Part shown: in pieces, positions 35,822 through 54,471 of the stretch
Position numbering within the stretch: position 1 is the first letter of the stretch
How the letters are laid out: each line of letters begins with the position of its first letter
DNA from: Prevotella sp.
Lineage (GTDB): Bacteria; Bacteroidota; Bacteroidia; Bacteroidales; Bacteroidaceae
DNA length: 54,471 nucleotides
Reading direction: 5' to 3'
Assembly (NCBI GenBank): GCA_017395215.1
Contig: JAFPVW010000003.1
Coordinates: forward strand, 1-54,471
Notes under the pieces: model-generated
What the model saw: only the letters and a program-made list of their open reading frames with translations
Told to the model about the DNA's origin: nothing
Database searches by the model: none
Position numbers and translations under genes: made by a program

Positions 35822-37669
35822 ATGAATATAGAAGCATTGATTAGCAAGGCAGCCGGCGAGGCCGTGAAGGCGCTCTACGGCATGGATGCAACCGACAAGA
35901 CGACGGATAGCACCAGTCGTCTGTTGCAGTTGCAGAAGACGCGCAGCGAGTTTGAGGGCAACCTGACCCTCGTGGTGTTCCCCTTTGTAAAGGCTGCAAA
36001 GAAAAGCCCTGAACAGACGGCGCAGGAGATAGGCCAGTACATGGTTGACAACTGTCCCGCTGTCGAGAAGTTCAACGTCGTGAAGGGCTTCCTCAACCTG
36101 AGCATCGGCGACGGTGCCTGGCTGGAGCTGCTGAAGGCCATCGACCAAGATGACCACTTCGGCACCAAGACCGCCAGCGAGGACTCTCCTCTCGTCATGA
36201 TCGAGTACTCCTCGCCCAACACCAACAAGCCGCTGCACCTCGGCCACGTCCGCAACAACCTGCTCGGCTGGTCGCTGGCACAGATTATGGAGGCCAACGG
36301 CAACCGTGTGGTCAAGACCAACATCGTCAACGACCGCGGCATACACATCTGCAAGTCGATGCTCGCCTGGCTGAAATACGGCAACGGCGAAACGCCCGAG
36401 TCGAGCGGCAAGAAGGGCGACCACCTCATCGGCGACTACTACGTGGCTTTCGATAAGCACTACCGCGAGCAGGTCAAGCAGCTCGTGGCCCAGGGCATGG
36501 ACGAGGAGAAGGCCAAGCAGGAGGCTCCGCTCATCAAGGAGGCCCACGAGATGCTGGTCAAGTGGGAGCAGGGCGACCCCGAAGTGCGCGCCCTCTGGGA
36601 GAAGATGAACTCGTGGGTGTATGCCGGCTTCGACGAGACCTATAAGAAAATGGGCGTCTCGTTCGACAAGATATACTACGAGTCGCAGACCTACCTCAAG
36701 GGCAAGGCCAAGGTGGAGGAGGGACTCGCCAAGGGCCTCTTCGAGCGTCACGACGACGGCAGCGTCTGGGCCGACCTCACCGACGAGGGCCTCGACCAGA
36801 AGCTGCTGCTGCGCAGCGACGGCACCTCTGTCTACATGACGCAGGACATCGGCACCGCCGAGATGCGCTTCCAGGACTACCCCATCGACAAGATGATCTA
36901 CGTCGTGGGCAACGAGCAGAACTACCACTTCCAGGTGCTCAGCATCCTGCTCGACCGTCTCGGCTTCAAGTGGGGCAAGGAGCTGACGCACTTCTCCTAT
37001 GGTATGGTGGAACTGCCCAACGGTAAGATGAAGAGCCGCGAGGGCACCGTCGTCGATGCCGACGACCTGATGGCCCTGATGGTCGAGGATGCCTACAAAA
37101 CCTCGATGGAATTGGGGAAATTTGACGATATGACCGAGAAGGAGCGCCGCGAGATTGCCCGCATCGTCGGCATGGGTGCCCTGAAGTATTTCATCCTGAA
37201 GGTCGACGCCCGAAAGAATATGCTCTTCAACCCTGAGGAGTCCATCGACTTCAACGGCAACACGGGTCCCTTCATCCAGTACACCTACGCCCGCATCCGC
37301 TCGATACTCAGGAAAGCCCCCCTGTCGTCCCCCGAGGGGGACACATTACCCTGCAAACAGACAAATGAAGCCCCCTCGGGGGCAGTAGGGGGGGCTTCTC
37401 TTTCCGACAAGGAGATTGAGCTTATCCAAAAGATGAACGAGTACGGCGCAGCCGTTGAGCAGGCCGGCAAGGACTACAGTCCCAGCGGCATCGCCAACTA
37501 CTGCTACGAGCTGACGAAGGTCTTCAACCAGTTCTACCACGACTACTCCATCCTCAACGAGCCCGACGCCGACAAGCGCGCCGTCCGCCTCATGCTGGCC
37601 CGCAACGTGGCCAAGATCATCAAGAGCGGCATGTCGCTCCTCGGTATCGAGGTGCCCGAGCGTATGTAA
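35822..37669 (+). CDS. argS: Arginyl-tRNA synthetase with an in-frame repeat insert
   Basis: Class I aminoacyl-tRNA synthetase charging tRNA-Arg; 615 aa. HIGH-type motif PLHLGH and the downstream GKMKSREG are present, as is the C-terminal DALR anticodon-binding domain (NYCYELTKVFNQFYHDYSIL). Residues about 497-526, between RIRSIL and SDKEIELIQ, are encoded by a palindromic repeat and read KAPLSSPEGDTLP... GAVGGASL, unlike normal ArgS linker text. The insertion lies in a variable loop, so the enzyme is probably functional. Confidence 0.96.
   Translation: MNIEALISKAAGEAVKALYGMDATDKTTDSTSRLLQLQKTRSEFEGNLTLVVFPFVKAAKKSPEQTAQEIGQYMVDNCPAVEKFNVVKGFLNLSIGDGAWLELLKAIDQDDHFGTKTASEDSPLVMIEYSSPNTNKPLHLGHVRNNLLGWSLAQIMEANGNRVVKTNIVNDRGIHICKSMLAWLKYGNGETPESSGKKGDHLIGDYYVAFDKHYREQVKQLVAQGMDEEKAKQEAPLIKEAHEMLVKWEQGDPEVRALWEKMNSWVYAGFDETYKKMGVSFDKIYYESQTYLKGKAKVEEGLAKGLFERHDDGSVWADLTDEGLDQKLLLRSDGTSVYMTQDIGTAEMRFQDYPIDKMIYVVGNEQNYHFQVLSILLDRLGFKWGKELTHFSYGMVELPNGKMKSREGTVVDADDLMALMVEDAYKTSMELGKFDDMTEKERREIARIVGMGALKYFILKVDARKNMLFNPEESIDFNGNTGPFIQYTYARIRSILRKAPLSSPEGDTLPCKQTNEAPSGAVGGASLSDKEIELIQKMNEYGAAVEQAGKDYSPSGIANYCYELTKVFNQFYHDYSILNEPDADKRAVRLMLARNVAKIIKSGMSLLGIEVPERM
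37312..37398. repeat. Palindromic repeat element inside argS
   Basis: Left arm 37312-37341 (GAAAGCCCCCCTGTCGTCC...) is an imperfect inverted repeat of right arm 37367-37398 (...GGGGGCAGTAGGGGGGGCTTC read on the plus strand). Each arm has an internal small palindrome (CCCCCGAGGGGG / CCCCCTCGGGGG). The reading frame stays open through the 87-bp unit. Confidence 0.85.
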
Positions 37670-37790
37670 ATTAATGGTTATGAAAAAGGTTCTGAAGTTT
37701 ACTGCCGTTAAATGATGAACATACTGCCACGTACCCAAACGAATGTAATAAATGCAATTTTGCAGTTCTAACCCTAAAACAACCAACATT

Positions 37791-38255
37791 ATGAAAAGAC
37801 AATTCTTAGTATTTGGCCTTGCCTTTACCATCGCAATGGGCATGGCATCGTGCAAACAGAAGAGTGAGGCACCCGCAGCCGCAGAGCAAGCGGAGACCGA
37901 ACAGGTGGAAACCAAGCAGCCCAATGCTGAGGAAATCGTGGCCAAGGCCAAGGCCGAAGGCGCTAACTGGAGCGTAGACGAGTGGAAGGCATCGACAAAG
38001 GATATGATGATTGCCCTTTCGCCTGCGCTGAAGAAGCTTGGCGAACTTCTCCAGAAGATGGAAGCTGAACCCGACAAGGTGGCCGAAATCATGGGCGAGA
38101 TGGAAGGCTTCAAGGCAGAGTTTGAACCCTTCGAAAAGCTGATGAACGAGTTTGAAGAGGTAGCCAAAGCCACCGTGAACGGCAAGGCCGTCATGGACGA
38201 CGAAGCCTGGGGCGACGAACTGAAAAAGGAGCTGGGCCTGCCCGACGACATGTAA
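37791..38255 (+). CDS. Small acidic/helical lipoprotein
   Basis: 154 aa. Signal ends GMASC (Cys21); then Glu/Ala-rich KQKSEAPAAAEQAETEQVE linker and a helical domain containing WSVDEWKASTKDMMIALSP and repeated EPDKVAEIMGEMEGF text. Probably an outer-membrane or surface lipoprotein; no known function recognised. The ATG at 37791 gives the signal peptide; a frame from 37752 adds a non-hydrophobic extension. Confidence 0.8.
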   Translation: MKRQFLVFGLAFTIAMGMASCKQKSEAPAAAEQAETEQVETKQPNAEEIVAKAKAEGANWSVDEWKASTKDMMIALSPALKKLGELLQKMEAEPDKVAEIMGEMEGFKAEFEPFEKLMNEFEEVAKATVNGKAVMDDEAWGDELKKELGLPDDM

Positions 38256-38410
38256 GCCCCCGCCACACCCACAGCAAGAAATCAATATGCTTTATTCGAA
38301 GCGTGGCGATTTCCTGTTAATTCCATTTTAAAGTTTTTAATTGCATACACTGCTTACACTTAAAGGCAAGTTCCAGTTGCACAGACTGTTGTGAAGTGTA
38401 GGCAAACCTG

Positions 38411-38438
38411 TTTGGTGTAGGCAACTGCCTACACCAAA
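38411..38438. repeat. Perfect short inverted repeat in 243-bp intergenic region
   Basis: TTTGGTGTAGGCA (38411-38423) pairs with TGCCTACACCAAA (38426-38438), 13-bp arms and a 2-nt centre. GTGTAGG recalls the hairpin elements at 21.9 and 50.9 kb. It could be a bidirectional terminator between the convergent genes, but neither side has a good U-tract. Confidence 0.6.
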
Positions 38439-38498
38439 TGGATTTGTATACATCCTAATCTGCACAATGCGTTTGAAGAAATCTATTGGTGATAATAC

Positions 38499-39122
38499 TT
38501 AATCATCTTCATCATACCAGTATCCTTCGGGCAAAGAAGCCTTCAAGTCTGCGATAGGACCTTCCCACTCAAAGTTGCCGACAACAGTACGGACACCAGG
38601 CTTGTTGCCGTTGTACCAGACACCATGGCCATCCTCCTGTACCATATAAACCTGGTCTTTTGCAACAATGCGATAACGCATGTTCCCTGTCTTGGTAATG
38701 GTGACTGTTGTCTTTTCCAGGGCGGGGGCTACCATTCCACTGATATAACCCATAATAAATTCGTCGTCATCATCTTTGGCTGCATAAGGTGAGTATTCTA
38801 TTCCAACTCCAGAAATGGTTCCTTCTGCGAAGGAGCCACTTGAAAAGCCCTCATTCCCTTCTTCATCAAGATATAAACTGACAACGGCATAATCTTTGTT
38901 GGGATTGCTCATCATCTCCTGGAAAGACGCTTCAAAAAACCAGATTATATACTCGTTGTCATACGAATAGTAGGCATACTTGAATGTGCTTTTATGCCCA
39001 TCCATTTCGGCATAGCCATAGCCGCTGCCGCCGTCATCGTCGTCATCGTCACCACATGCGCATACTGCGCCCATTGTAAATGCGGCCATTAGAAGCATGG
39101 CCCAAAGTTTCATTTTCTTCAT
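38499..39122 (-). CDS. Poly-Asp lipoprotein 1
   Basis: 207 aa. Signal MKKMKLWAMLLMAAFTMG, lipobox AVCAC (Cys23), then GDDDDDD. The Asp run right after the lipid-anchored Cys resembles the Bacteroidetes lipoprotein export signal that sends proteins to the cell surface. The rest is beta-rich; no family recognised. First of three neighbours (38.5-40.4 kb) with near-identical signal peptides. Confidence 0.8.
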   Translation of the reverse strand: MKKMKLWAMLLMAAFTMGAVCACGDDDDDDGGSGYGYAEMDGHKSTFKYAYYSYDNEYIIWFFEASFQEMMSNPNKDYAVVSLYLDEEGNEGFSSGSFAEGTISGVGIEYSPYAAKDDDDEFIMGYISGMVAPALEKTTVTITKTGNMRYRIVAKDQVYMVQEDGHGVWYNGNKPGVRTVVGNFEWEGPIADLKASLPEGYWYDEDD

Positions 39123-39145
39123 ACTTGATTTGATTTGTTGTTATG

Positions 39146-39958
39146 CTATTTTACCTTTTTGTATCTATATGTGCCATCTATCAATTCACCATTTGAATAG
39201 GTGTAACGCTTGTAGTTGCCTACATAGACGTCGTTGCCCTTCATAGTGTAGCTGAACACATCGCCAGCTGGATCACTCAGATAGAAGGAGAGCGGATAGC
39301 TTTTGCCCTTCACTGTAAAGGTCTCGGACGCGATGCTGCCACCTCCGCTGGAATGCTTGGCAGTCACATAATAATTCTGCATAAGCACATTGTCGATGAC
39401 ACGAATGGCGGCGGGAGAGTCCTCCAAAGTGGCAGAGCCGATAGTCTGGTCCTGGGCTGCCGCCATCGACGACATGGTGCTGTATGCCTGAGTCACCTCC
39501 TTGCAGAAATAGTAGCCGGGCGTTATACCCTCCTGTGATGCGTCTGTCGTGCTTTTCCCACTTGATTTCTCCTCGTAGCCTTCCAGCCCGCCATTGACAA
39601 TCCTGATGTTGTACGTCTCGTAGTAACCGTCGCTCTTGACAACATTGATGGTCACGGTATTGCCACTTATTGTATATGGGCAGAGGATGTCGCCCCAGTC
39701 ATAAGTGTAACGTCCATCTTCGTCATAGCCGAAGCCTGAAACCCTTACCATACAATTTTCCTTGCTAATAAACTCTATATGGATGGTTTTCGTCTCCAGT
39801 CCACCATTGTTAGTTCTCTCAAATGTCCGACCTAAGAGCGAAACATTGTCGCTTTGGCCGCTATAGCCTTCGTCGTCATCGTCATCACCGCAGGCACATA
39901 CTGCGCTAATTGTAAAAAGAGCCGTCATCAGTATGGCCCAAAACATAGTCTTCTTCAT
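39146..39958 (-). CDS. Poly-Asp lipoprotein 2
   Basis: 270 aa. Signal MKKTMFWAILMTALFTISA, lipobox SAVCAC, then GDDDDDEG. Body contains beta-rich text (TVTINVVKSDGYYETYNIR, SYTMKGNDVYVGNYKRY) that looks like a lipocalin- or Spi/beta-sandwich-type fold; function unknown. Paralogue of the neighbouring lipoproteins in its signal region only. Confidence 0.8.
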   Translation of the reverse strand: MKKTMFWAILMTALFTISAVCACGDDDDDEGYSGQSDNVSLLGRTFERTNNGGLETKTIHIEFISKENCMVRVSGFGYDEDGRYTYDWGDILCPYTISGNTVTINVVKSDGYYETYNIRIVNGGLEGYEEKSSGKSTTDASQEGITPGYYFCKEVTQAYSTMSSMAAAQDQTIGSATLEDSPAAIRVIDNVLMQNYYVTAKHSSGGGSIASETFTVKGKSYPLSFYLSDPAGDVFSYTMKGNDVYVGNYKRYTYSNGELIDGTYRYKKVK

Positions 39959-40009
39959 TGTTAGTTTGTGATTTAGTAAAACTGAAGAGTCGTCTTATGC
40001 CTGCCGACT

Positions 40010-40420
40010 CTATTTAGCATTAAAGTTTGTGCCTTCAACATTGATTGACTCAGTTTCACCCTCCGTGTTGCTATAGCCAATCTCCCAATTAATGGTCTTA
40101 CCCCTATAGTCACCAGACGTGTAAGTGACATTGATAAGAAACCACGTCTTGCTTTCACCAGTCTCTATCTCATACGGGGCGCCATAATCGAAGGAGCCAT
40201 TGGGGTATTTAGTTTCATTGAAACTATTGGTGACAAGGCCTGTTCCATTGCTGGAGAAGCTGATCATCATACCTCCATTTAGCCAGTTGCCCAGGATGTG
40301 GCTAGTTACGGCATTACTACCACCGCCTTTGTCATCATCGTCGTCACTACTGCAGGCGCATACGGCACCCAATGTCAACACGGCCATAAATAGGATGGCC
40401 CATACTTTTGCTTTTTTCAT
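40010..40420 (-). CDS. Poly-Asp lipoprotein 3
   Basis: 136 aa. Signal MKKAKVWAILFMAVLTLGA, lipobox AVCAC, then SSDDDDDKGG. Body is short (NWLNGGMMISFSSNGTGLVTN, NWEIGYSNTEGETES), resembling the beta-barrel lipocalin-like domains of many Bacteroidales small lipoproteins. The three paralogues differ in length and body, suggesting diversification around a shared export signal. Confidence 0.8.
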   Translation of the reverse strand: MKKAKVWAILFMAVLTLGAVCACSSDDDDDKGGGSNAVTSHILGNWLNGGMMISFSSNGTGLVTNSFNETKYPNGSFDYGAPYEIETGESKTWFLINVTYTSGDYRGKTINWEIGYSNTEGETESINVEGTNFNAK

Positions 40421-40790
40421 TGTTTTTTGTGTTTAGTTATACATTTGTTGATTTCTTTTCAAATTAATAAGAGAATCCTCCCTTTCCATTGCATCCCACA
40501 CAGGCAACTTTGCCGTGGCAAACACCACAGCGGTCACCCTTGTCGTGTGTGTTGACACCTGTGCCGCCACAGTATTTGCAGCGTCCATTTCCTCCGCATG
40601 AATGACAATTATGCCACTTCTTCGCTGTCGTGGTCGTTGTTGCATTATATAGCGAACTATAGATGGATGCAGCAGATGACATAGTCGTGGATGTTGCAGA
40701 ATAAGAGTTACTCGTAGTAGTTGTTCCGTACATAGACCCAGCTCCTTCAGTCATTCCTTGCATGACGGCTAACATTGTGTCGTATGAGGA
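40421..40790 (-). repeat. Tandem-duplicated block (copy 1)
   Basis: The 3' half of the zinc-ribbon gene, its stop region and the following about 45-bp intergenic run (ending GTGTTTAGTTATACATTTG) recur almost unchanged at 41519-41900. Duplication therefore covered coding and non-coding DNA. Confidence 0.8.
40464..40775 (-). CDS. CxxCxGxG zinc-ribbon protein; N-terminal signal region apparently without a start codon
   Basis: The 103-aa frame from MLAVMQGM has a Ser/Thr-rich middle and four CxxCxGxG-like motifs at the C-terminus: CHSCGGNG, CKYCGGTG, CGVCHGKV and CVGCNGKG, as in the DnaJ zinc domain. Its paralogue at 41563-41943 has a lipoprotein signal before the same point. Upstream of this ATG the frame reads YIWIALLLGCLLSSYDT, clearly the homologous signal region, but it has no ATG: the only start candidates are ATA or ATT, and a TAA precedes. 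An ATG exists one base out of frame. The third motif is KV instead of KG. Either a non-standard start is used, or the gene is decaying. Confidence 0.6.
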   Translation of the reverse strand: MLAVMQGMTEGAGSMYGTTTTSNSYSATSTTMSSAASIYSSLYNATTTTTAKKWHNCHSCGGNGRCKYCGGTGVNTHDKGDRCGVCHGKVACVGCNGKGGFSY

Positions 40791-40840
40791 TAATAAGCAC
40801 CCCAGAAGAAGGGCAATCCATATATATTATAATCTCCTGC

Positions 40841-41518
40841 TTAATAACGTATAACAATGAAACCGACCCCACCACATCTAAGGCAAAACTTTTTCCCACC
40901 AACAGGGAAGTACCCACTCCCATCACATTGCGGACATGGTGCTATACCGCCTTCACCCTTGTCTTCTTGATATGTACCAGCACCGCCAGATCCATAGAAA
41001 GGATGGCTGGGAGTGCCGCTACCAAGAGTCTTGGCATACCAGTTTTCACCTTTATAACGTGGCTCGGAAACTTCTATTGAGGTTTCCAGCTGATTTTCAT
41101 AGTACTGCTGGTCATAGTATTTACCGTCTTTATACAAAGAGCCTGACCCATGTTTTGTTCCATGAGAAAATTCTCCTTTGTACCAAGAACGCTCGGCAGG
41201 ATAGGTTACCTCCACGGTTCCATTCCAACGTCCATTCTCGTCAAAACCACCCAAACTCTCAATGCCATTGGGCTCAATCAACCTGCCTGTCACTCTTCTG
41301 CCGTCAATGGTAGAACCATAGAATCTACCACCGTCATTGTAACGGATAATCTGATTGTCCTTAATTGTACTGCCTGTTCTGATTGTGCTGAGAAATGTTC
41401 CTGACGAGGGACGGGCGGTACGAGTTCCTGGATTGATTCTGTCAATAAATCTTTGTGCATTAGCACTTAACGAGACCATCAAAATGAACATGGCCAAAAA
41501 TACGCTTCCTTTTTTCAT
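40841..41518 (-). CDS. Secreted MORN-like repeat protein with C-terminal CxxCxGxG motifs
   Basis: 225 aa with signal peptide MKKGSVFLAMFILMVSLSANAQ. MORN-like text lies around residues 60-145 (YNDGGRFYGSTIDG, WYKGEFSHGTKHGSGSLYKDGKY). The C-terminus has CPQCDGSGYF and CLRCGGVGF, a half zinc-ribbon like that of DnaJ. It lies between the two paralogous CxxCxGxG genes. The stop overlaps a Shine-Dalgarno-like AGGAG just before the next gene region. Confidence 0.8.
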   Translation of the reverse strand: MKKGSVFLAMFILMVSLSANAQRFIDRINPGTRTARPSSGTFLSTIRTGSTIKDNQIIRYNDGGRFYGSTIDGRRVTGRLIEPNGIESLGGFDENGRWNGTVEVTYPAERSWYKGEFSHGTKHGSGSLYKDGKYYDQQYYENQLETSIEVSEPRYKGENWYAKTLGSGTPSHPFYGSGGAGTYQEDKGEGGIAPCPQCDGSGYFPVGGKKFCLRCGGVGFIVIRY

Positions 41519-41900
41519 TGTTATTGGTGTTTAGTTATACATTTGTTGTTTCCTTTTCTAATTTAATAAGAGAATCCTCCCTTTCCGTTGCATCCCACAC
41601 AGGCGCCTTTGCCGTGGCATACACCACAGCGGTCACCTTTGTCGTGTGTGTTGACACCTGTGCCGCCACAGTATTTACAACGTCCATTCCCTCCGCATGA
41701 ATGACAATTTTGCCACTTCTTCGCTGTCGTGGTTTTGGTTGAATTGTCCGTTTCACTGTATACGGTGGAACTGGATGAAGCAGATGTCGTAGGTGTCGAG
41801 GAATAAGAGTTGTAAGTGGTGCCAGTTCCATATGCAGACCCCACACCGTTTGCCATACCTTGCATTAATGCCAACATTGTGTCGCAAGAAGTAAATGCAC
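41519..41900 (-). repeat. Tandem-duplicated block (copy 2)
   Basis: Partner of the block at 40421-40790; the copies flank the MORN-like gene, which may have been carried or inserted between them. Length of the intergenic part is conserved. Confidence 0.8.
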
Positions 41901-41943
41901 ATAACATGAAGGCAATTGCCATCCAATTATATGTTTTTTTCAT
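41563..41943 (-). CDS. CxxCxGxG zinc-ribbon lipoprotein
   Basis: 126 aa. ATG at 41943 gives a lipoprotein signal MKKTYNWMAIAFMLCAFTSC (Cys20). A Ser/Thr/Tyr-rich spacer leads to four CxxCxGxG motifs (CHSCGGNG, CKYCGGTG, CGVCHGKG, CVGCNGKG) ending GGFSY. Such motifs bind two zincs in DnaJ and related thiol chaperones, but no J domain is present. It is nearly identical in the C-terminal half to the gene at 40464. The upstream ATG at 41982 would overlap the next gene and is rejected. Confidence 0.8.
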   Translation of the reverse strand: MKKTYNWMAIAFMLCAFTSCDTMLALMQGMANGVGSAYGTGTTYNSYSSTPTTSASSSSTVYSETDNSTKTTTAKKWQNCHSCGGNGRCKYCGGTGVNTHDKGDRCGVCHGKGACVGCNGKGGFSY

Positions 41944-41978
41944 ATATAGTAAGAATCTTCCGAGAATGACATTTATCA

Positions 41979-42572
41979 TCAATATGCAATGCCTATGCCA
42001 ATATTGAATCCACCTGTGGCACCGTTGTCCTTACTAAATTTAAACTTTGGGGCCCAATAGAAATATCCACCGGTAATGTATATTTTGCCAAATTTAACTG
42101 TTAGTCGGGGATTAACAACGGCATCAATGAAAAACTTGTCACTATTATATTCAATATTTCCTCTTTTGTCAAATCCTGATATTTCATCTTGCGTCCTTAA
42201 AGATGGACCAGCAGCCAAAGTAAGCAGCAACTGATTTGAATCTTGCTTCCACAATCCAAACGAATAGTTAAAGAGTAAATCAAAATTGAAATTCCCATGG
42301 TCTTTAAACTGGGCACGCACTCCAAAATCCAATCCTACTCCATTGGGATTAGTATAATTCGAATTGAGTCCATAGTTTTCGAAACCATCAAAGCTATAAT
42401 ACATAAGTCCCAAGCCACCAAAAGATTCGTCTTCTTCCGTACTGTTAGTATTGACACTTTGTCCATCTGCACTGGTGATGGGCGAATCGTAATTGTTCGT
42501 GATGACATCTTGTGCATTTGTACTGACAAATGCAATCAAAGCAATAAATGCCGAAAAGATAATCTTTTTCAT
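41979..42572 (-). CDS. Small outer-membrane beta-barrel protein
   Basis: 197 aa. Signal KKIIFSAFIALIAFVSTNAQ; then alternating beta-strand text (GLMYYSFDGFENYGLNSNY, LTVKFGKIYITGGYFYWAP) and C-terminal aromatic GFNIGIGIAY. Looks like a small porin-like or OmpA/OmpW-type barrel; substrate unknown. Upstream of the zinc-ribbon lipoprotein by 35 bp, likely one transcript from the TapB-like gene down. Confidence 0.75.
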   Translation of the reverse strand: MKKIIFSAFIALIAFVSTNAQDVITNNYDSPITSADGQSVNTNSTEEDESFGGLGLMYYSFDGFENYGLNSNYTNPNGVGLDFGVRAQFKDHGNFNFDLLFNYSFGLWKQDSNQLLLTLAAGPSLRTQDEISGFDKRGNIEYNSDKFFIDAVVNPRLTVKFGKIYITGGYFYWAPKFKFSKDNGATGGFNIGIGIAY

Positions 42573-42608
42573 AATAAATGCTTATTAAGTTATTAGTTGT
42601 ACGAAGTA

Positions 42609-43994: not shown

Positions 43995-44076
43995 ACTTTG
44001 CGGTTTTAGTTATTACAAGTCTGCCTCCTGAACTCCCGAATTCAGCGTTAATAATCGTACGAAAGATAATGGAAAC

Positions 44077-44110
44077 AAAAAAGGCATGGGAGTTCTCTAC
44101 TCTCGCCCAT
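44077..44110 (-). terminator. Intrinsic terminator of the candidate RNA
   Basis: On the minus strand ATGGG...CCCAT with inner pairs, followed by GCCTTTTTTG. It lies 83 bp before the TapB-like gene, so it would end or attenuate transcription from the promoter at 44418. Confidence 0.6.
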
Positions 44111-44411
44111 CCCTGTGTTCAGGCCTTCGCATTGCCTCCAGTCAAGGATAAGCAACGCAGTGAGCCCACGCCAAGCACATATACGTAATACATACCACTA
44201 TACCCAAATGCATAGCAATATGCAAGCATATAAATCTGCCCACGTAGGTGTTCCGTTGCATTATCTCTGTGACTGAATTCAAGTTTGCGAAGTTTGAACA
44301 CACAGAACGATAACGTTCGTAAACGCCTTTTCGAGACCAGCCCTACAAACGGCTTTGTGGTCTCATTCCATCGATGTCTTGACCCGCTTCAGCCCCTTCG
44401 GACTGGCTAAG
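44077..44411 (-). ncRNA. Candidate structured RNA (about 335 nt)
   Basis: The 514-bp gap 43995-44508 holds no credible gene, yet has a complete minus-strand promoter (44418-44449), a hairpin-rich body and a terminator. Hairpins on the minus strand: GAGACCACAAAGCC with a closing GGGCTGGTCTC (about 44333-44364), GAACG-ATAA-CGTTC, and AGCC...GGCT near the 5' end. It could be a stand-alone RNA (6S-like or lineage-specific) or an attenuated leader of the TapB-like gene. It does not show the RNase P or tmRNA signatures. The 60-codon frame at 44119-44301 inside it is likely fortuitous. Confidence 0.5.
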
Positions 44412-44417
44412 TCGGGG

Positions 44418-44508: not shown

Positions 44509-47007
44509 TTACTTCACCGACCACTCGAAGAGTCCGGCGGAGTCGTCATCGGGCAGCGTCACCTCCAAGCGGACGGCTTTGGTGCGCACGGGGGTGAAGT
44601 TGACAGTGCTGGCGGTGCCGGGGTAGGTGGGGTAGCTGTCGGCACCCTCGACGGGCAACCACTGACCGTCGGCGCTCTGATAGAGGATGCGCCACGACTT
44701 CGGCACGTCGCAGCCGCCCCACGGCTTGTCGCAGAACCAGTAGACGGTGGACGTGCTCACCTCGGCCTCCTGCGGGAACTCGTAGGCTATCCACTCCGTC
44801 GAGGCCTTCTTGGGCCACCAGTGGGTGTAGGGCACCGAACGGTCGTTCTCGCCCTTCGGTACGAGGCGGTCGTTGACGGCCGAGATGGCAGGCATCCGTG
44901 GCGTCGATGTCGTCACCTTGCTCTCCGAGGCCAGTGTGGCGGGCTGTGCGGGTGTGGTGGCGCTGAGGTCCTGCGGCAGCCAGACGCGCATCTTCCCTGA
45001 GCCGCGATGGCACCAGGCGTAGTATGGAATAAGCGTCAGCGTCTGGTCCTTCACCGTGAGCTTTCCCTGTTTGTCGAAGTCGAGCGTCTGGGCATCGGTA
45101 GAGAGAGTCATGATGGGATAGGTCTCTCCACTTTTCACTTTTAACTCATCACTTTTCACTTCAAACGTCGGCTCCTGATTGACCAAGGCCGAGAAAATGT
45201 CGAACTGGTTGTCGGGGTGCTCGGCACAGTAGACAATCGGGCCGCGCTCCACAGCTATCATCCCCCGGTCGGCTTCCACCTTATTATTCGCGCGAACGGT
45301 GCGCGGCTCCATATCGAAGCAGATGACCACCTTGTCGCCCTTCTTCCAGCGGCGCTCAATGTCCACGTAGCCGTCGTCGCCGACGAGCAGGGGCACGGTA
45401 ACGCCGTTTACGATGAAGCTATAGCCCAGCCGCTTGTTGTCGGTGTACTGGTAGAGGTCGCCGGGCACGGGCTTGTTGCGAAGCCAGCCGGGGACGCGGA
45501 TCTTCAAGTTGAACTCGCCCACACTGTTCTTGTCGATGGTCAGCTCGGTCTCGCCGTCCCACGGGTAGTCGGTCTTCTGGGTCAGCGTCAGCTTCTTGCC
45601 CCCGACGCTGAGTGTCGAGGTGTTCGAGAGGAACAGGTTCACGTAGACATTCTTCTCTTTCACGGCATAGACGTAGCCGGGCAGCGAGGGGATGAAGCGG
45701 CAGATGTTCGACGGACAGCAGGCGCAGCCGAACCATGCCTGACGCTGGTGCTGGCCCATCGACTCCAATGGGTTGGGATAGAAGAAGCCGTCGCCCTGCA
45801 GCGAGACACCTGAAATCAGGCCGTTGTAGAGCGTGCGCTCCAGCACGTCGTAGTACTTCGACTCGCCGTGGAGCAGGAACAACCGGTAGTTGACGTAGAC
45901 ATTGCCGATGGCGGCACACGTCTCGCAGTAGGCACTCATGTTGGGCAGTTCGTAGTTCTTGCCGAACGCCTCGCCGCTTGAGGTGGCGCCGATGCCACCG
46001 GTGATATACAGTTTCTTCGTGACGATGTTGTCCCAGATGCGGTCGATGGCCTTGATGTAGCCCTCGTCGCCCGTCAGGGCAGCCACGTCGGCCATGCCTG
46101 CATACATATAGGCGGCGCGGACAGCGTGGCCCACGGCCTCGTCCTGCTCAATGACGGGCTTGTGGCTCTGCGAGTACTCCTGCTTGATGGAGGTCTTGCC
46201 GCGATAGTCGAGCAGGAACTTGGCGAAGTCGAGATAGCGCTTCTGACCGGTGGCCAGGTAGAGGCGCGCCATGGCCATCTCGGCTATCTGGTGACCGGGC
46301 ACGACACACATCTGTCCGGGATTGGGGCCCACCTCCTTGCAGGCCACGTCGGCATAGCGGCAGGCGATGTCGAGGAACTTGCGCTTGCCGGTAGCCTGCC
46401 AGTAGGCCACCGCTCCCTCCACCATGTGGCCGAGGTTGTACAGTTCGTGCGAGAGGTCCTCCTCCTTCACCCAGCGGCGGTCGCCGGCCCAGTGGTGTGG
46501 GTCGGTGGGGTTCTGCGTGCGGGCGGTGTAGAGGTAGCCGTCGGGCTCCTGCGCACGGCCGATGATGTCGATGACGGAGTCGCAGTAGTGTTCAAGGAGT
46601 TGAGGAGTAAGGAGCCGAGGAGTAAGTAGATTTGTTTGTGCATTTCTACTCAACTCCTTACTCCACAACTCCTTACTACTCAAAAGATAAGCAGCCCCTT
46701 CCAGCGTCTTATAGGGGTCGGTATCGTCGAACGAGTAGCCCACGCCGTTCACCTTGAACGTCTTCGACGGGTCCTTCAGGTGCGCGGCAGCATTGTCGAA
46801 GTTCTTGTAGCGGCCCTCACTCTCGCACTTCGAGAAGGCGAGGGGTACGGTGGTGTTGCGACTGGCCTGCAGGCGTTGTCCCCAGAACGTGCCGGGAGCG
46901 ACCTTCACGGCGGTGAAGGGTACGGGGGTGATGGGGTAGCCCTTCTGTGCTACGCCGACAAGGAGCGAAAAGTGAAAGGTGACGAGTGTTAATAGTAGCT
47001 TTTTCAT
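44509..47007 (-). CDS. GH127 beta-L-arabinofuranosidase with discoidin-like C-terminal domain and in-frame repeats
   Basis: 832 aa, secreted (signal MKKLLLTLVTFHFSLLVGVAQ). Cleaves terminal beta-L-arabinofuranose as found on hydroxyproline-rich plant glycoproteins. Catalytic set by analogy with bifidobacterial HypBA1 (E338, C340, C417, C418): E362 and C364 in YCETCAAIG, C430 and C431 in GCACCPSN, a zinc-bound Cys nucleophile. The C-terminal about 130 residues look like an F5/8 type C (CBM32-like) module (HWWPKKASTEWIAYEFP, FEWSV). Residues about 109-138 are encoded by an inverted repeat, and DELKVKSGE near residue 620 by a simple repeat. Read-through pair with GH146, 12 bp apart. Confidence 0.92.
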   Translation of the reverse strand: MKKLLLTLVTFHFSLLVGVAQKGYPITPVPFTAVKVAPGTFWGQRLQASRNTTVPLAFSKCESEGRYKNFDNAAAHLKDPSKTFKVNGVGYSFDDTDPYKTLEGAAYLLSSKELWSKELSRNAQTNLLTPRLLTPQLLEHYCDSVIDIIGRAQEPDGYLYTARTQNPTDPHHWAGDRRWVKEEDLSHELYNLGHMVEGAVAYWQATGKRKFLDIACRYADVACKEVGPNPGQMCVVPGHQIAEMAMARLYLATGQKRYLDFAKFLLDYRGKTSIKQEYSQSHKPVIEQDEAVGHAVRAAYMYAGMADVAALTGDEGYIKAIDRIWDNIVTKKLYITGGIGATSSGEAFGKNYELPNMSAYCETCAAIGNVYVNYRLFLLHGESKYYDVLERTLYNGLISGVSLQGDGFFYPNPLESMGQHQRQAWFGCACCPSNICRFIPSLPGYVYAVKEKNVYVNLFLSNTSTLSVGGKKLTLTQKTDYPWDGETELTIDKNSVGEFNLKIRVPGWLRNKPVPGDLYQYTDNKRLGYSFIVNGVTVPLLVGDDGYVDIERRWKKGDKVVICFDMEPRTVRANNKVEADRGMIAVERGPIVYCAEHPDNQFDIFSALVNQEPTFEVKSDELKVKSGETYPIMTLSTDAQTLDFDKQGKLTVKDQTLTLIPYYAWCHRGSGKMRVWLPQDLSATTPAQPATLASESKVTTSTPRMPAISAVNDRLVPKGENDRSVPYTHWWPKKASTEWIAYEFPQEAEVSTSTVYWFCDKPWGGCDVPKSWRILYQSADGQWLPVEGADSYPTYPGTASTVNFTPVRTKAVRLEVTLPDDDSAGLFEWSVK
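45130..45162. repeat. Simple repeat in GH127 coding sequence
   Basis: On the minus strand AAGTGAAAAGTG, then ATGAGTTA, then AAAGTGAAAAGTGG. It encodes VKSDELKVKSGE in a surface region. Similar TTTCACTTTTC text occurs in this gene's signal peptide (about 46976) and GAAATGAAAAG near 53337. Confidence 0.7.
46594..46680. repeat. Inverted repeat in GH127 coding sequence
   Basis: AAGGAGTTGAGGAGTAAGGAG at the left pairs with CTCCTTACTCCACAACTCCTT at the right (read in full each arm is about 30 bp, imperfect) across a short loop containing TTTGTTTGTGCATTT. The frame stays open. Confidence 0.8.
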
Positions 47008-47019
47008 TGTATTTCGTTT

Positions 47020-49821: not shown

Positions 49822-49893
49822 AGTGGGACATTTTTGAACTGCAAAATAATCATTTTCCATATTATCAGCTCCACATGCTGATGTACTTGAGGG

Positions 49894-49901
49894 CAAAGGT
49901 A
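49894..49901 (-). promoter_or_regulatory. Promoter box for the GH146-GH127 operon
   Basis: Minus-strand TACCTTTG, about 72 bp before the ATG at 49821. Divergent from the VapB-like promoter. Confidence 0.5.
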
Positions 49902-49951
49902 AGAAGAAATTTGGAATTACGCAAGCATTTACCCATTTTATCTCGTTTTTG

Positions 49952-49982
49952 TTTGATTATTCAGAAAAAAGTCTTAACTTTG
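49952..49982 (+). promoter_or_regulatory. Promoter of the VapBC-like pair
   Basis: TTTG at 49952-49955, 19-bp spacer, TAACTTTG at 49975-49982, 26 bp before the ATG. Confidence 0.65.
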
Positions 49983-50008
49983 CAGCAAATAATCAAAATG
50001 TTTGGAGT

Positions 50009-50302
50009 ATGACCGCAGTAGCAAGAAAAATACAGGAAACCCCTATGGCACCATATACAAGTTTGCTACAGGGAATGAGTCGCGAAGAAAAGAAAATCGT
50101 CATCATGTTTTTGACCGAGTCTCTGGCAGAAAGCAAAGAAGAGGTCAAAGAGCCCGGACTGTCCAAAGAAGAGCGTAAACGTGGGCTGATGTCGCTTGCT
50201 GGTTGTTGGAAAAATGACCCAGAGGATGCAGCCCGCATGGAAGCCGCTATCAAGGACGGACGAAAGAATGAGTTTGTGCGTGAAATCAACCTCGATGACT
50301 GA
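50009..50302 (+). CDS. Putative antitoxin partner of the VapC toxin
   Basis: 97 aa with ATG at 50009 (MTAVARKIQ). Helical, charged, with GMSREEKKIVIMFLTESL and a C-terminal KNEFVREINLDD. No AbrB, RHH or Phd fold is recognised; assignment rests on the overlapping toxin gene (TGATG). The longer frame from 49949 covers the promoter, so it is rejected. An acidic C-terminal tail could neutralise the toxin. Confidence 0.7.
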   Translation: MTAVARKIQETPMAPYTSLLQGMSREEKKIVIMFLTESLAESKEEVKEPGLSKEERKRGLMSLAGCWKNDPEDAARMEAAIKDGRKNEFVREINLDD

Positions 50303-50718
50303 TGGAGAAGTACATTCTTGATACCTGTACGTGGATTGAGTTCTTTCACGAACGTAATGGCGTGAAGGAACATGTGGACGGAATAGACCCAGACCAAATT
50401 TTTGCATCCGAAATAACGCTTGCAGAGTTGACGTACGGAGCTATTAATAGTAGTGATTATGAAAGGCATATCAAAGAGCCCCAATGGTTGAGACAATACA
50501 TAACTGTTTTCCCTATTAGTGATGTGTTTGAGGAATATGGTCAGATTCGTTGCGCCTTAAAGAAAATCAAGAAAGACATTGTCCAAAAGATTGGACAGTT
50601 CGACATTCTGATAGGAGCCACTGCCCTTCATTACGGCCTGACTGTCGTTACTGACAACGTGAAAGACTTCAGCCTGATGCCTGGCGTGAAGTGCGTGAAC
50701 TGGGTGGAAAGGACATAA
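50302..50718 (+). CDS. vapC: PIN-domain VapC-like toxin
   Basis: 138 aa. PIN nuclease acidic residues: D7 in ILDTCTWIEFF, E42 in TLAELTYG, D101 in FDILIGATAL and D118 in VTDNVKDF, a complete set for Mg2+/Mn2+-dependent RNA cleavage (VapC toxins usually cut tRNA or rRNA). ATG overlaps the antitoxin stop by one base (TGATG), so translation is coupled. Located between CAZymes and a repeat-rich region, typical of accessory DNA. Confidence 0.9.
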   Translation: MEKYILDTCTWIEFFHERNGVKEHVDGIDPDQIFASEITLAELTYGAINSSDYERHIKEPQWLRQYITVFPISDVFEEYGQIRCALKKIKKDIVQKIGQFDILIGATALHYGLTVVTDNVKDFSLMPGVKCVNWVERT

Positions 50719-50788
50719 TCTGCTCATAGCCCTGTAGTCTTTTGTCCTGAGGAAATCCGCAACTATTTTATGTTGATGCCTTTCGGCT

Positions 50789-51000
50789 CGGTGTCGGTTT
50801 AGGTGTCGGTTCAGGTGTCGGTTCTCAGCTCTGAAGCACCGATTGTGAGCTTTCTGCCGATCAATCCGGGTATTTTTGCTATTATAGTTGTTAATCGCAC
50901 TTTATATCCAACACTCCCTACACTTCCTGCACCTAAAATAGTTCAACAGGTGCAGGAAGTGTAGGAAGTGCAGGATGTTTCCTGCGAATGGCAATTATAT
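50789..51000 (+). repeat. Dispersed hairpin element, copy B
   Basis: Three GGTGTCGGTT repeats (50789-50822), TTTTTGCTATTATAGTTG, then the hairpin with arms 50906-50933 and 50949-50976 (28 bp, 25 matches) built of GTGCAGGAA/GTGTAGGAA 9-mers. It is the inverted counterpart of the element at 21898-22100. Confidence 0.85.
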
Positions 51001-51060
51001 AGTGATTGAGGGTTTTTGCGGTGAAGTCCTCATTGACCTCACCGGGCGACAGGCTATGGG

Positions 51061-51160
51061 AAAGGCGGCGGGTTTCATCCAAAAGGCGGGGGTTTATGAG
51101 AAAAAGGCGGGGGTTTATGAGAAAAAGGCGGCGGGTTTTGGGCAAAACCCGGCGCCTTTT
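51061..51160. repeat. Degenerate GGCGGCGGGTTT minisatellite with terminal hairpin
   Basis: About four units with variable interiors (GGGTTTCATCC, GGGTTTATGAG, GGGTTTTGGGC), related to the array at 22110. The last unit plus an inverted unit form an 18-bp hairpin: AAAAGGCGGCGGGTTTTG (51123-51140) and CAAAACCCGGCGCCTTTT (51143-51160), one mismatch. It could act as a terminator. Confidence 0.8.
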
Positions 51161-51212
51161 GTTTGTCCCGCGGTCTACTTTCTCCAGGCGAAGCAAGAAA
51201 ATCAAAAAAAAC

Positions 51213-51243
51213 TTTGACACGTCAGCATTATTGTGTAACTTTG
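51213..51243 (+). promoter_or_regulatory. Promoter of the metalloprotease-FAH-porU operon
   Basis: TTTG at 51213-51216, 19-bp spacer, TAACTTTG at 51236-51243, 32 bp before the ATG at 51276. Confidence 0.65.
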
Positions 51244-51275
51244 CAGGCGAAAAAAGAATGATAACTAATAACGAG

Positions 51276-53447
51276 ATGAAAAGGATTTTGACTGTTGGCT
51301 TCTGGCTGCTTGCCGTCTGCGCAATGGCGCAGAAGACGGTGTACATCCCCGACGAGTGGCGCCACCCGTGGCCGTCGGACTCGCTGCTCTATGCCGAGAG
51401 CGATCCCGACTGCAAGTACACGTGGTCGAAGACGCGGAGCGTGGAGTCCGACAACGTCATCGTGTTCTGGGACAAGGGCTACGGCTCCGTGCTGCCCTCG
51501 AAGTCGCCGACGGCCTACCGCATCGACGAGCAGGACCTGCTCAAGAAGTGCGAGGCCTTCTACGACCTGGAAATCAACAAGCTGGGCTTTGTGGACCCCG
51601 CGAAGACCAACCTCAGGCGCTATAAGGTGATGGTGCTGCTGAACCACACGACGGAGTGGGTGTGCTACGGCGGCGGCTACGACTACGAGGTGAGCGCCCT
51701 CTGGCTCGGTCCGTCGGCCTGCAAGCCCGTCGGCCACTCGGTGGCCCACGAGGTGGGACATTCGTTCCACTATATGTGCTACGCCGACGCATCGGGCAAC
51801 AACCACAACTCGTCGTCGACCATCAACACCGGCTTCCACCTGCAGTGCGGCAACGGCCAGACCATCTGGGAGCAGACGGCCCAGTGGCAGGCCAACCAGT
51901 CGTACCCGGAGCTGATGTTCGACCAGAGCATCGGCGTGTTCCGCAAGAGCCATAACTACGCTTACAGTCACGAGTGGCACCGCTACCAGTCGTACTGGCT
52001 GCACTACTATCTGTGCCAGTATTACGACGACATCACCACGGTGGCCCAGGTATGGCGGCAGCCCATGACGGGCCAGAGCCAGGGCAACGCCACCGACTTC
52101 AACCAGGCGCTGATGAAGCTGAAGAAGCTCGACGCCACGGGGCTCTTCCGTCTCTACTACGACTACGCCGCCCGTCTGGCCACATGGGACCTGGACGCCT
52201 GCAAGCCCTACCGCGATGCGCACATCGGCGACTTCGACTACCGCTGCGTGCTGCTCTCCTCCCTTGGGGAGGGGCCGGGGGTGGGCTCTTATCAGGTGGC
52301 GTTGGCTTCGGCGCCGCAGTCCAGCGGCTTCAACATCATCCCGCTGAAAGTGCCTGAGGCTGGCACCGACGTCACCACCCGCTTTACCGCCCTCAACACC
52401 TTAAACTGCAAACTGGCCGCTGGCGACCCCGCCGAGATGCTGAACGGCGAGACGCAGTGGAGCAAGACCAACCGCACCACCTACGTCAATAATACCAACC
52501 GCGCCAACCGAGGCTTCCGCCTTGGCTACGTCGCACTGATGAAGGACGGCACGCGCCGCTACCTGAACGCCGACTCCGTCTATTGCACGGGCACCGCCGA
52601 GGCGACTGCCGACATCACGGCGACCATTCCCGAGGGCACCGACCGCCTGTGGCTCATCGTCGTGCCTGCCCCCAAGCGTTACGTACAGCACAAGTGGACC
52701 GACAAGGCCGACAACGCCGAGATGTGGCCCTACCGCTTCCAGATAGAAGGCACCGACCTCGCGTCAAGGGCCACGGTCTACGTCAGTCCCACGATTGACG
52801 GCCGCGAGGTGAGCGACGTCACGCTGACCTACGACGTCTACCTGCCCCAGCTGAACAGCTACGACGCCGTGCCCGTCACCGTCAGCGGACGGGCGTTGGC
52901 ACAGTTGGGCACCGCCTTCCAGCTGCCTACAGCCGACATTGCCGCGAAGATGGTCGCCTACGCCGCTGCCGGTCCCGCCGTCGGCAAGATGATGTTCTAC
53001 CCGCTGAACCCCAAGACGCTCGCCACGGTAAGCAGCGGCTCGACGGCCAACGGCTTCGGCCACTGGTTCGGGGCCAACGGAGCCGTGAGCAGCTACCAGA
53101 ACGGCTACATCTACAGCGAACTGGACACGTCGTCGATGACGTTCAGCATCGGCCAGTACCCCGGCAAGGTGAAGCAAGGTGCGGAATATACCGTCGGCCA
53201 GGCCCTGCGCTACAAGCAGGCCGACGGCAAGATAGCCACTGCCCGCTTCGTCTTCCGCGTACATATTACTAATGTAGACTACGGCGCCGAGCTCGCCAGC
53301 ATTGACTACGCCGACCCGACGGGCATCAGTGAAGTGAGAAATGAAAAGTCTGTAGGCGGGGGCGCCGTCTACGACCTGCAGGGGCGCCGTGTGGACAGTC
53401 CGGCCCGCCGCAGCGTCCTGATTGTAAACGGGAAAAAGACGCTATGA
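51276..53447 (+). CDS. Secreted putative metalloprotease with HEVGH motif and DUF4859-like domain
   Basis: 723 aa, signal MKRILTVGFWLLAVCAMAQ. Zinc protease motif HEVGHSF at H158-H162 (preceded by KPVGHSVA) in a DUF6055-like domain; later domains include a DUF4859-like segment (MMFYPLNPKTLATVSSGSTANGFGHWFG, only the core quoted) near 560-690. The C-terminal about 30 residues (VYDLQGRRV...VLIVNGKK) look like the short C-terminal signal of Prevotella secreted proteins that resembles a T9SS sorting domain. A palindromic repeat (52256-52290) is in frame as LLSSLGEGPGVGS. Start 51276 chosen over in-frame ATG 51258 because it gives the signal peptide. Coupled to FAH and porU by ATGA overlaps. Confidence 0.85.
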   Translation: MKRILTVGFWLLAVCAMAQKTVYIPDEWRHPWPSDSLLYAESDPDCKYTWSKTRSVESDNVIVFWDKGYGSVLPSKSPTAYRIDEQDLLKKCEAFYDLEINKLGFVDPAKTNLRRYKVMVLLNHTTEWVCYGGGYDYEVSALWLGPSACKPVGHSVAHEVGHSFHYMCYADASGNNHNSSSTINTGFHLQCGNGQTIWEQTAQWQANQSYPELMFDQSIGVFRKSHNYAYSHEWHRYQSYWLHYYLCQYYDDITTVAQVWRQPMTGQSQGNATDFNQALMKLKKLDATGLFRLYYDYAARLATWDLDACKPYRDAHIGDFDYRCVLLSSLGEGPGVGSYQVALASAPQSSGFNIIPLKVPEAGTDVTTRFTALNTLNCKLAAGDPAEMLNGETQWSKTNRTTYVNNTNRANRGFRLGYVALMKDGTRRYLNADSVYCTGTAEATADITATIPEGTDRLWLIVVPAPKRYVQHKWTDKADNAEMWPYRFQIEGTDLASRATVYVSPTIDGREVSDVTLTYDVYLPQLNSYDAVPVTVSGRALAQLGTAFQLPTADIAAKMVAYAAAGPAVGKMMFYPLNPKTLATVSSGSTANGFGHWFGANGAVSSYQNGYIYSELDTSSMTFSIGQYPGKVKQGAEYTVGQALRYKQADGKIATARFVFRVHITNVDYGAELASIDYADPTGISEVRNEKSVGGGAVYDLQGRRVDSPARRSVLIVNGKKTL
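52256..52290. repeat. GGGGAGGGGCCGGGGGTGGG repeat in coding sequence
   Basis: CTCCTCCCTTGGGGAGGGG is an imperfect palindrome and is followed by CCGGGGGTGGGCTCTT. The same unit, inverted, is found at 54434-54471 in porU. The frame stays open. Confidence 0.85.
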
Positions 53448-54061
53448 AGATTTTTGCAATAGGAATGAACTATGCGGCACACAATAAAGAGCTGCATGAT
53501 ACGTTATTAAAACCAGAGGAGCCGGTCATCTTCACCAAGGCCGACTCAGCACTGCTGAAGCCCGGCAAACCGTTCTTCGTGCCCGACGACATGGGACGGA
53601 TTGACTACGAGGCCGAGGTGGTGGTGCGCATCTGCCGGTTGGGCAAGAACATCGCCGAGCGGTTTGCCCACCGCTACTACGATGCCGTCACCGTGGGACT
53701 CGACCTCACCGCCCGCGACATGCAGCGGCGAGCCAGTCACGCCGGACAGCCGTGGACCATCTGCAAGGGGTTCGACGGCTCGGCGGTCATCGGCGAGTGG
53801 GTGGAACTGTCGCAGTTGCCCGCCGTGCAGGCCCTGCACTTCCGCTTGGAGAAGAACGGCGAGACGGTGCAGCAGGGGTGTACCGGCGACATGTTCTACA
53901 CCGTTGACCAGATCATCGCCTACATCTCGCGGTTCTTCACGCTGAAGACGGGCGACCTGCTCTACACGGGAACACCCGCCGGCGTTGGTCCGGTCAGCAT
54001 CGGCGACCGCCTGGAGGGCTGGCTCGAGGAGCAAAAGGTTTTGGAACTGAACTGTAAATGA
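53444..54061 (+). CDS. Fumarylacetoacetate hydrolase (FAH) family protein
   Basis: 205 aa. Opens KIFAIGMNYAAHNKEL and carries metal-site residues in DYEAEVVV (Glu pair) and GLDLTARDMQ, with YTGTPAGVGPVSIGD near the end. FAH-fold enzymes act as hydratases, decarboxylases or acylpyruvate hydrolases; substrate not decidable. Starts inside the stop of the metalloprotease gene (ATGA) and its stop overlaps porU, forming an unusual operon for this family. Confidence 0.93.
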   Translation: MKIFAIGMNYAAHNKELHDTLLKPEEPVIFTKADSALLKPGKPFFVPDDMGRIDYEAEVVVRICRLGKNIAERFAHRYYDAVTVGLDLTARDMQRRASHAGQPWTICKGFDGSAVIGEWVELSQLPAVQALHFRLEKNGETVQQGCTGDMFYTVDQIIAYISRFFTLKTGDLLYTGTPAGVGPVSIGDRLEGWLEEQKVLELNCK

Positions 54062-54471
54062 ACGTAAGACGACATACACTGAGTGTGCTTCTGCTGCTGA
54101 CGGGCCTGTGCGCGTCGGCTCAGGAGTTCTTCAACCTGACCGCCTCGGAGGTCAGGATCGACTCGGTGCTGCCGTTGTTCACATACACCCGTGAGTTGGG
54201 TGCCGGCTATGCCGACTCCACCTATACGGTTACGATAGAATACCCGGAATTCATCGATATGTCGGAGACCGACGTGGCGCGGTTACACAAGATTACCGAC
54301 CGCAAACTGCCCGCCATGCCCGAGATTCAGCAGTACATCGGCGTGTCGCGCAAGCGGGGCACGCTCTATGTGGCCTTCACGCCCATCGTCTTTCGAGAAG
54401 GGAAGTATCAGAAGTTAGTAAGTTTTATGATAAAGACCCACCCCCGGCCCCTCCCTGTAGGGAGGGGAGTA
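54058..54471 (+). CDS. porU: PorU-like type IX secretion protein (5' part)
   Basis: 138 codons to the window end. Signal peptide (TLSVLLLLTGLCASAQ) then TASEVRIDSVLPLFTYTREL and the PorU-like KITDRKLPAMPEIQQYIGVSRKRG and GTLYVAFTPIVFREGKYQKLVSF. PorU is the gingipain-family sortase-like protease that removes C-terminal sorting signals of T9SS cargo. An in-frame palindromic repeat begins at residue about 126 and reads THPRPLPVGRGV at the cut. Overlaps the FAH stop (ATGA). Confidence 0.85.
   Translation, partial: MNVRRHTLSVLLLLTGLCASAQEFFNLTASEVRIDSVLPLFTYTRELGAGYADSTYTVTIEYPEFIDMSETDVARLHKITDRKLPAMPEIQQYIGVSRKRGTLYVAFTPIVFREGKYQKLVSFMIKTHPRPLPVGRGV
54434..54471. repeat. CCCACCCCCGGCCCCTCCC repeat in porU coding sequence
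   Basis: AAGACCCACCCCCGGCCCC followed by CTCCCTGTAGGGAGGGG, the inverse of the unit at 52256-52290. The window ends inside it. Confidence 0.85.

Follow-up and report, generated by a model that had tools for sequence, protein, structure and literature searches.

Our analysis of a 54,471-nucleotide stretch of Prevotella sp. DNA (assembly GCA_017395215.1, contig JAFPVW010000003.1; this whole stretch is called the window below) points with considerable confidence to a family of dispersed palindromic elements, here named F1 and represented in the window by a copy inside the arginyl-tRNA synthetase gene argS, that are most likely selfish, live mainly inside the protein-coding genes of rumen-type Prevotella and are apparently translated with them. 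The metagenome-assembled genome (MAG) behind the window measures 3.6 Mb in 211 contigs, with a completeness of 85% and a contamination of 5.9%. Its host is presumably a rumen-type Prevotella, so called because of the names and sample titles of the listed records that share the argS repeat. The repeats of the window sort into four families: F1 (CCCCCGAGGGGG type, in argS), F2 (GGAGGGGCCGGGGGTGGG type, in a DUF4859 protein and in an open reading frame (ORF) called porU), F3 (CACTTTT heptamers) and F4 (15-nt units, in a GH127 gene). An earlier interpretation of the letters without database searches (the sequence-only reading) had counted at least three families and had described all their copies as repeats that keep the frame of their host genes open. 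Several families do exist, but they behave differently, and an in-frame habit can be maintained for F1 and not for F2, the heptamers or the GH127 repeat.

The argS gene (35822..37669, forward strand, 615 aa, with the Pfam domains tRNA-synt_1d and DALR_1), matched in 37 of 40 genomes including its own, is an open frame from the ATG at 35822, and the repeat proposed within it leaves this frame open. It is an 84-nt inverted repeat (AAGCCCC...GGGGCTT; 37314..37397, forward strand) that encodes APLSSPEGDTLPCKQTNEAPSGAVGGA and whose 34-nt arms, at 37314-37347 and 37364-37397, are 76% complementary. The corresponding RNA has a computed folding energy of -56.5 kcal/mol (z -6.8 against shuffled sequences), and the four palindromic copies tested gave z values of -6.8 to -8.8. 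Its residues are not conserved sequence shared by orthologues, as none of the 17 ArgS relatives aligned contains F1. The same linker is nonetheless a site of repeats in further genomes: one outside this alignment (L149) has half an F1 there, and others have TTCACTC heptamers (L246), TCAACTC heptamers (L251) or ACTAGT-like repeats (L249). In an AlphaFold2 model of the window ArgS (18 sequences; mean predicted local distance difference test score, pLDDT, 88; predicted template modelling score 0.86), helices 482-498 and 529-539 flank the insert, and residues 502-521 have a pLDDT below 50 and no secondary structure. The insert is modelled as a disordered inter-helix loop, in agreement, for the one structure modelled, with the earlier proposal that the repeats sit in surface loops or linkers. 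The same MAG holds a second, partial argS (G000:C161:22009-22866, 92% identical), which perhaps reflects a mixture of strains or species.

F1 is a multicopy family. Its core, CCCCCTCGGGGG, has 63 matches in the own genome and none for the reversed control, and F2 has 94, so that neither is the single-copy sequence that would have spoken against the sequence-only reading. Cores of F1 also lie at the very start of contigs C165, C174 and C199. The own genome has 20 exact CCCCCGAGGGGG...CCCCCTCGGGGG pairs spanning 36 to 63 nt, all 20 with lengths divisible by 3, and such pairs occur in 30 of 150 genomes of the genus (own included; control 0), with a maximum of 46 copies (G097). Lengths divisible by 3 also prevail among the exact pairs of other congeners (56 of 62 by hand count, among the matches listed) and in the loci collected (45 of 49). 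A scan of GTDB genome contigs with the F1 pattern returned at least 113 stretches; among the matches listed, 80 stretches all belong to records named Prevotella, Prevotellaceae, Bacteroidaceae or Bacteroidales, many with titles referring to the rumen or another ruminant stomach. A half-site pattern allowing one mismatch detected the own genome and no other among 393 sampled genomes of the order, a sample whose 392 other genomes include only two from its genus and three further ones from its family. In the samples searched, F1 turned up in a single genus. No known RNA family of Rfam reached the gathering threshold in the 7 sources scanned (73,228 bases).

The alignment of 28 forward copies reveals a common architecture of GCCCCCC, a short spacer, CCCCCGAGGGGG, a variable centre and CCCCCTCGGGGGC-N-GTAGGGGGGGC. 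Copies are preceded by A-rich (69% A at position -1) and followed by T-rich (67% T) flanks, and the element is therefore best written AAG...CTT; with these ends it measures 66-102 bp, mostly 81-93. For the 18 own copies that were compared, the closest other copy in that genome shows 83-96% identity over 62-89 nt.

The relation of F1 to reading frames rests on a census of 101 full copies with a standard right arm, collected without any ORF filter (one site, L231, matches on both strands and was counted once). Their lengths (62, 68, 77, 80, 83, 86, 89, 95 and 98 nt) fall without exception (101/101) into a single class modulo 3. A scored ORF was one accepted by a codon score together with an open-frame test, the codon model having been trained on 16 window ORFs that the analyst judged to be genes rather than on annotated ones. 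By this definition, 92 of the 101 copies are in frame within a scored ORF, and a crude clustering of their flanks separates about 80 distinct sites; these copies come from the own genome (19/20), other genomes (12/14) and GTDB loci (61/67). By comparison, random points fell inside a scored ORF in 985 of 1500 trials on the GTDB loci and 1047 of 1500 on the own loci (66-70%), and the simulated random insertion of one 81-nt element kept the ORF in 525 of 1500 and 572 of 1500, respectively (35-38%). The excess over random points could have several causes: F1 may prefer transcribed DNA, be copied from one gene to another or be lost faster elsewhere, or the patterns used for collection may be biased. 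An earlier classifier placed 64 of 84 full copies in frame and 4 out of frame; of the rest, 8 had a single coding side, 3 were noncoding and 5 lay at edges. It also placed 25 of 40 half copies in frame. Our rates rest on the later set of 101. Other C5-GA/TC-G5 cores (half, degenerate or reverse-tagged) are often in ORFs too (15/19 own, 50/74 GTDB). In gene sense, the GTAG arm of the in-ORF copies is downstream in 80 cases and upstream in 12. The peptide read in the usual orientation is A-P-x-S-S/A-P-E-G-D/A-T...E-A-P-S-G-A-V-G-G-A, and in the opposite one it is APPTAPEGAS...SPSGDERGA-like.

The genes that house F1 are diverse. All 20 proteins scanned at own F1 loci match a known family (one protein per locus, read from stop to stop and in some cases cut at the locus end, with argS and the copy at a contig end in L065 left out). 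They include DnaE (L047), methionyl-tRNA synthetase (metG, L050), the CCA-adding enzyme (cca, L057), RsgA (L045), glutamine synthetase III (GS-III, L063), CTP synthase (pyrG, L082, with two copies), a pyruvate-formate-lyase-like protein (L066), a TRCF-type helicase (L068), a Kdo transferase (L070), DapF (L080), IspH/LytB (L042), a rhamnulokinase-like protein (L043) and several glycosidases. In the DUF58 gene of L036, the open frame begins just before F1. Many of the host genes belong to types that are generally essential.

Orthologues with and without the element, of which we assumed the empty state to be the older, give a more nuanced picture of how F1 arrives. A clean insertion, as the sequence-only reading had expected, is approached in a GH94 gene (94/90% identity), where EVEIE + 27 residues + TIYHK corresponds to an empty EVEIEGSTIYHK and, in the DNA, GAAGGA[GCC...GGC]CACC corresponds to an empty GAAGGCTCCACC, with a loss of about 2 nt. 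Elsewhere the native linker is often replaced, as in the GS-III pair (97/96% identity), from which about 48 nt of it are gone. Because most occupied/empty pairs show such replacement, insertion of F1 as a single event is something that we infer. Some sites carry more than one kind of repeat: a GcvT-like gene has F1 in one genome and the F2-like PLPVGGGREG in another, and in the pairs for methionyl-tRNA synthetase and an adenylation domain the F1-free member contains a simple repeat. Separate genomes can also share an F1 site (L059/L232, L063/L137), and for some genes related genomes share the same insertion (L063/L137, L213/L221).

These observations suggest the following scenario. A typical F1 copy consists of two inverted arms around a variable centre, is readable in one frame in either orientation, and would yield a peptide rich in P, G, A, S and E that is probably disordered. 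A copying process would place new copies elsewhere in the genome, of which the ones that fall in linkers without breaking the frame would survive, the surrounding linker being trimmed or overwritten at insertion or later. Survival inside genes would follow from being translatable and disordered, and the insert would be neutral for the protein. As to the movement itself, a folded single strand copied without target duplication is a guess that we hold weakly. A bolder proposition, for and against which we see about equal weight, is that F1 is a selfish lineage with the translated genome as its main habitat, evolving under the constraint of the frame (length steps of 3 nt, open in both orientations), residing in genes beyond what random points predict and, together with unrelated repeats, continually overwriting the same linkers of essential enzymes.

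Several facts weigh against F1 being a mobile, gene-dwelling and translated element. Besides the replacement of linkers already described, no autonomous partner emerged: F1 cores or arms were absent from all 15 Y1-transposase loci inspected over up to about 1.5 kb on each side (F2 was present in one, L318). Nor was there a sign of target duplication, as flanking direct repeats of 2-9 nt showed no clear excess over shuffled pairs, and the strongest flank offset tried (z 2.3) concerned 2 of 102 rows, with one row of the 102 being a double count. The exact pair is missing from 120 of the 150 congeners. Four of the 49 exact pairs in the collected loci are not of length 3n (L105, L112, L122 and L124, all outside the standard pattern), and the variants L105, L118 and L121 do not read through. 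Nine of the 101 copies lie outside scored ORFs, including that of L036, which has an apparent frame shift at the element; some of the nine seem in frame by alignment, such as that in a GuaA-like gene (L213). Finally, the standard pattern omits variants, and the GTDB loci were retrieved with a coding-type right-arm pattern that may favour an ORF lineage.

The alternative that survives best, which we nevertheless consider rather unlikely, is that F1 copies are REPINs or repetitive extragenic palindromic (REP) sequences that a RAYT (Y1 HUH transposase) mobilizes in trans, with the copies inside genes forming one lineage of that system. Paired inverted hairpins with GTAG beside one of them fit this idea, as does the presence of Y1_Tnp matches in the own genome (two) and in 7 of 8 F1-bearing congeners. 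RAYT chemistry is not expected to leave a target duplication, in keeping with the lack of a clear one here. However, the 15 Y1 loci devoid of F1 (two of their matches do not reach the Pfam threshold and some are parts of long ORFs) argue against it, and F1 lies mostly within ORFs rather than outside genes. Moreover, Y1 matches are absent from one congener with 8 F1 copies (G023), a genome that is only 56% complete. The Y1 (RAYT-like) gene of L001 has its own, different palindromes: GGGGACAGTCCCC and GGGGACTGTCCCC flank it (1241, 1337, 2294) and form a family apart from F1 and F2. After the Y1_Tnp search of the own genome and the eight congeners, we rejected a RAYT partnership for F1 at these loci.

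A selected functional device, in which mRNA hairpins or linkers regulate the expression or folding of housekeeping genes, appears improbable. Very stable hairpins, the orientation bias of 80 to 12 and the insertions shared by related genomes in some genes would agree with it, but the hosts are unrelated in function, close relatives lack the insert, some of the linkers are also taken by other repeat families and the ArgS insert is unstructured in the model. About as improbable is linker growth by replication slippage or template switching without any mobile element. This mechanism is plausible for the heptamers and 15-nt arrays, and the prevalence of replacement over clean insertion would suit it; for F1 we disfavour it, since copies in unrelated genes share the high identity described above, F1 is confined to one genus in the samples, and slippage at one locus cannot yield the same 80-mer elsewhere. 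An assembly or binning artefact, to which the incompleteness and contamination of the MAG, the contigs starting in F1 cores and the second partial argS might point, is hardly credible given that F1 is found with open frames on both sides in many other assemblies and at the same sites in separate genomes.

Unlike F1, the other three families have no special affinity for ORFs. F2 resembles REPs: it has 94 matches in the own genome with up to 2 mismatches (1 for the control), often as facing pairs, and only a tolerated share in genes, with 16 of 48 own and 12 of 22 GTDB copies within scored ORFs and 32 of 48 and 10 of 22 outside; under a laxer test that counts overlapping matches twice, 21 of 53 own copies are outside ORFs and 10 are weak. 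In the window, the repeat announced at 52256..52290 (forward strand) is present as a copy of CCCACCCCCGGCCCCTCCC in a gene with its ATG at 51276 and its stop at 53447, whose product matches Pfam DUF6055 and DUF4859. At the repeat this protein is longer by about 7 residues than the two homologues compared, which show 55-59% identity and one of which has an in-frame stop; SSLGEGPGVG stands against ED...GG in one of them. This copy alone makes no strong hairpin (z +0.2), and neither of the two F2 copies folded did far better than shuffled sequences (z +0.2 and -1.0). The second F2 repeat (54434..54471, forward strand; 54437-54455 exact) is likewise where it had been reported, in an ORF from 54058 on. 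The claim that it keeps the frame open holds only up to the end of the contig, which falls inside the repeat and cuts the frame beyond it; in the relatives that could be aligned, a variable linker takes this place. Pfam gives no match for the 138-aa stub, and the name porU is that of the sequence-only reading.

The GH127 gene (44509..47007, reverse strand, identified by Pfam match) hosts two further repeats, both confirmed with slightly wider limits than the 46594-46680 and 45130-45162 first given. The F4 palindrome of 15-nt units (46594..46683, reverse strand; RNA fold z -7.7) encodes about SSKELWSKELSRNAQTNLLTPRLLTPQLL, and these roughly 29 repeat-derived residues stand against QTYPDKK in 6 of 11 homologues aligned, a related short stretch in 4 and an unrelated SPLLHSSTPSLL repeat in the remaining one (L279). 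The heptamer-type (CACTTTT) array (45124..45165, reverse strand) encodes part of FEVKSDELKVKSGE and adds about 5 residues relative to most homologues. A degenerate CACTTTT heptamer with 3 mismatches (46968..46988, reverse strand) falls in the hydrophobic N-terminal, signal-peptide-like stretch of the same protein (VTFHFSLLV), and similar heptamers occupy such a stretch in a second protein (SLFTFHFSLLTSTAQ, L374, near 1501), which may represent a second route by which simple repeats come to be read as protein. Arrays of F3 and F4 recur across the own genome, with 91 matches for F3 (84 for the reversed control) and 14 for F4 (8 for the control); the control is itself a similar tandem array, and the comparison shows no excess over chance. 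Of 32 loci taken (12 of the 14 F4 and 20 of the 91 F3 matches, several overlapping one array), 24 were relocated. Three of these are internal to a scored ORF (the GH127 locus accounts for two), 1 is N-terminal and 20 are not in a scored ORF. Period-7 arrays in GTDB loci were within scored ORFs in 22 of 60 cases. F3 and F4 are not ORF specialists.

The window contains other repeats as well. Two related arrays of 21-nt tandem repeats (22063-22310 and 51040-51203) are separated by about 29 kb, the second just upstream of the DUF4859 gene. A 191-nt direct repeat has copies at 40456-40646 and 41555-41745 with 92% identity and a spacing of about 1.1 kb, and a similar 64-nt stretch adjoins it. Repeats of 15 nt at 18539-18639 are within an ORF with a Lys/Thr/Ala-rich product (KKTTVKKTAA). 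A small ORF at about 50302-50719 resembles, as judged by eye, a PIN-domain (VapC-type) protein, and a C-terminal stretch similar to it is found near a Y1 gene in L002 (1756-2193).

With dozens of copies in some rumen-type genomes, including in replication and translation genes, F1 makes the passage from selfish DNA to protein a testable question. Occupied and empty orthologue pairs, many comparable species and rumen metaproteomes, where the insert peptide could be looked for, offer the material for this. Some of the linker sequence of these Prevotella proteins derives from repeats, a point of consequence for gene calling and structure prediction. If the translated genome is indeed the main habitat of F1, housekeeping proteins of rumen-type Prevotella would have linkers that act as landing pads and are shaped by repeats, not by slow substitution.

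Translated palindromes are best known from Rickettsia, whose palindromic elements (RPEs) were reportedly described by Ogata et al. in 2000 and 2002. Among the titles and abstracts listed by our searches of an open-licence library, none describes such elements in Prevotella, and the 3 papers containing the core DNA strings are unrelated by title. Among the systems with which F1 can be compared, translated inverted repeats are also present in nematomorph mitochondria according to a part of PMC6649704, but those are long perfect repeats of an organelle, both arms of which encode conserved mitochondrial residues, whereas F1 adds new residues. Miniature inverted-repeat transposable elements (MITEs), as characterized in passages of PMC10969869 and PMC3733652, share with F1 terminal inverted repeats, small size and the absence of an own transposase gene; F1 differs in having no clear target duplication, and we noticed no parent insertion sequence for it, although no systematic search was made. 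REPs of the GTAG/CGTC type, in the account given by sections of PMC3733652, are paired short hairpins that are predominantly intergenic, with some copies within ORFs in several species, including in replication and repair genes, and with flexible linkers or loops as their proposed seats. F2 resembles them. F1 has GTAG in its right arm, on the 3' side of the hairpin as aligned, and a GTAG or CGTC tag at the hairpin foot is a mark of REPs; in contrast to REPs it is mostly intragenic, changes length in steps of 3 nt and has no matching RAYT at the loci examined. The closest likeness is to RPEs, which in the relevant parts of PMC10969869, PMC3733652 and PMC6649704 appear as dispersed palindromes lying in frame in unrelated genes and tolerated by the proteins. 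F1 is likewise a dispersed palindromic repeat open in frame within protein-coding genes. In a passage of PMC10969869 on R. conorii, RPEs are about 150 bp long and nearly half of them are in ORFs, a length and a proportion that differ from those of F1. The analogy with RPEs drawn by the sequence-only reading is apt for F1, a palindromic, dispersed and in-frame repeat of essential-type genes with a loop position in the ArgS model. F1 would work like an RPE, a likeness by description and not a claim of membership, in a host of another phylum, some of whose F1-bearing linkers also serve unrelated repeat families.

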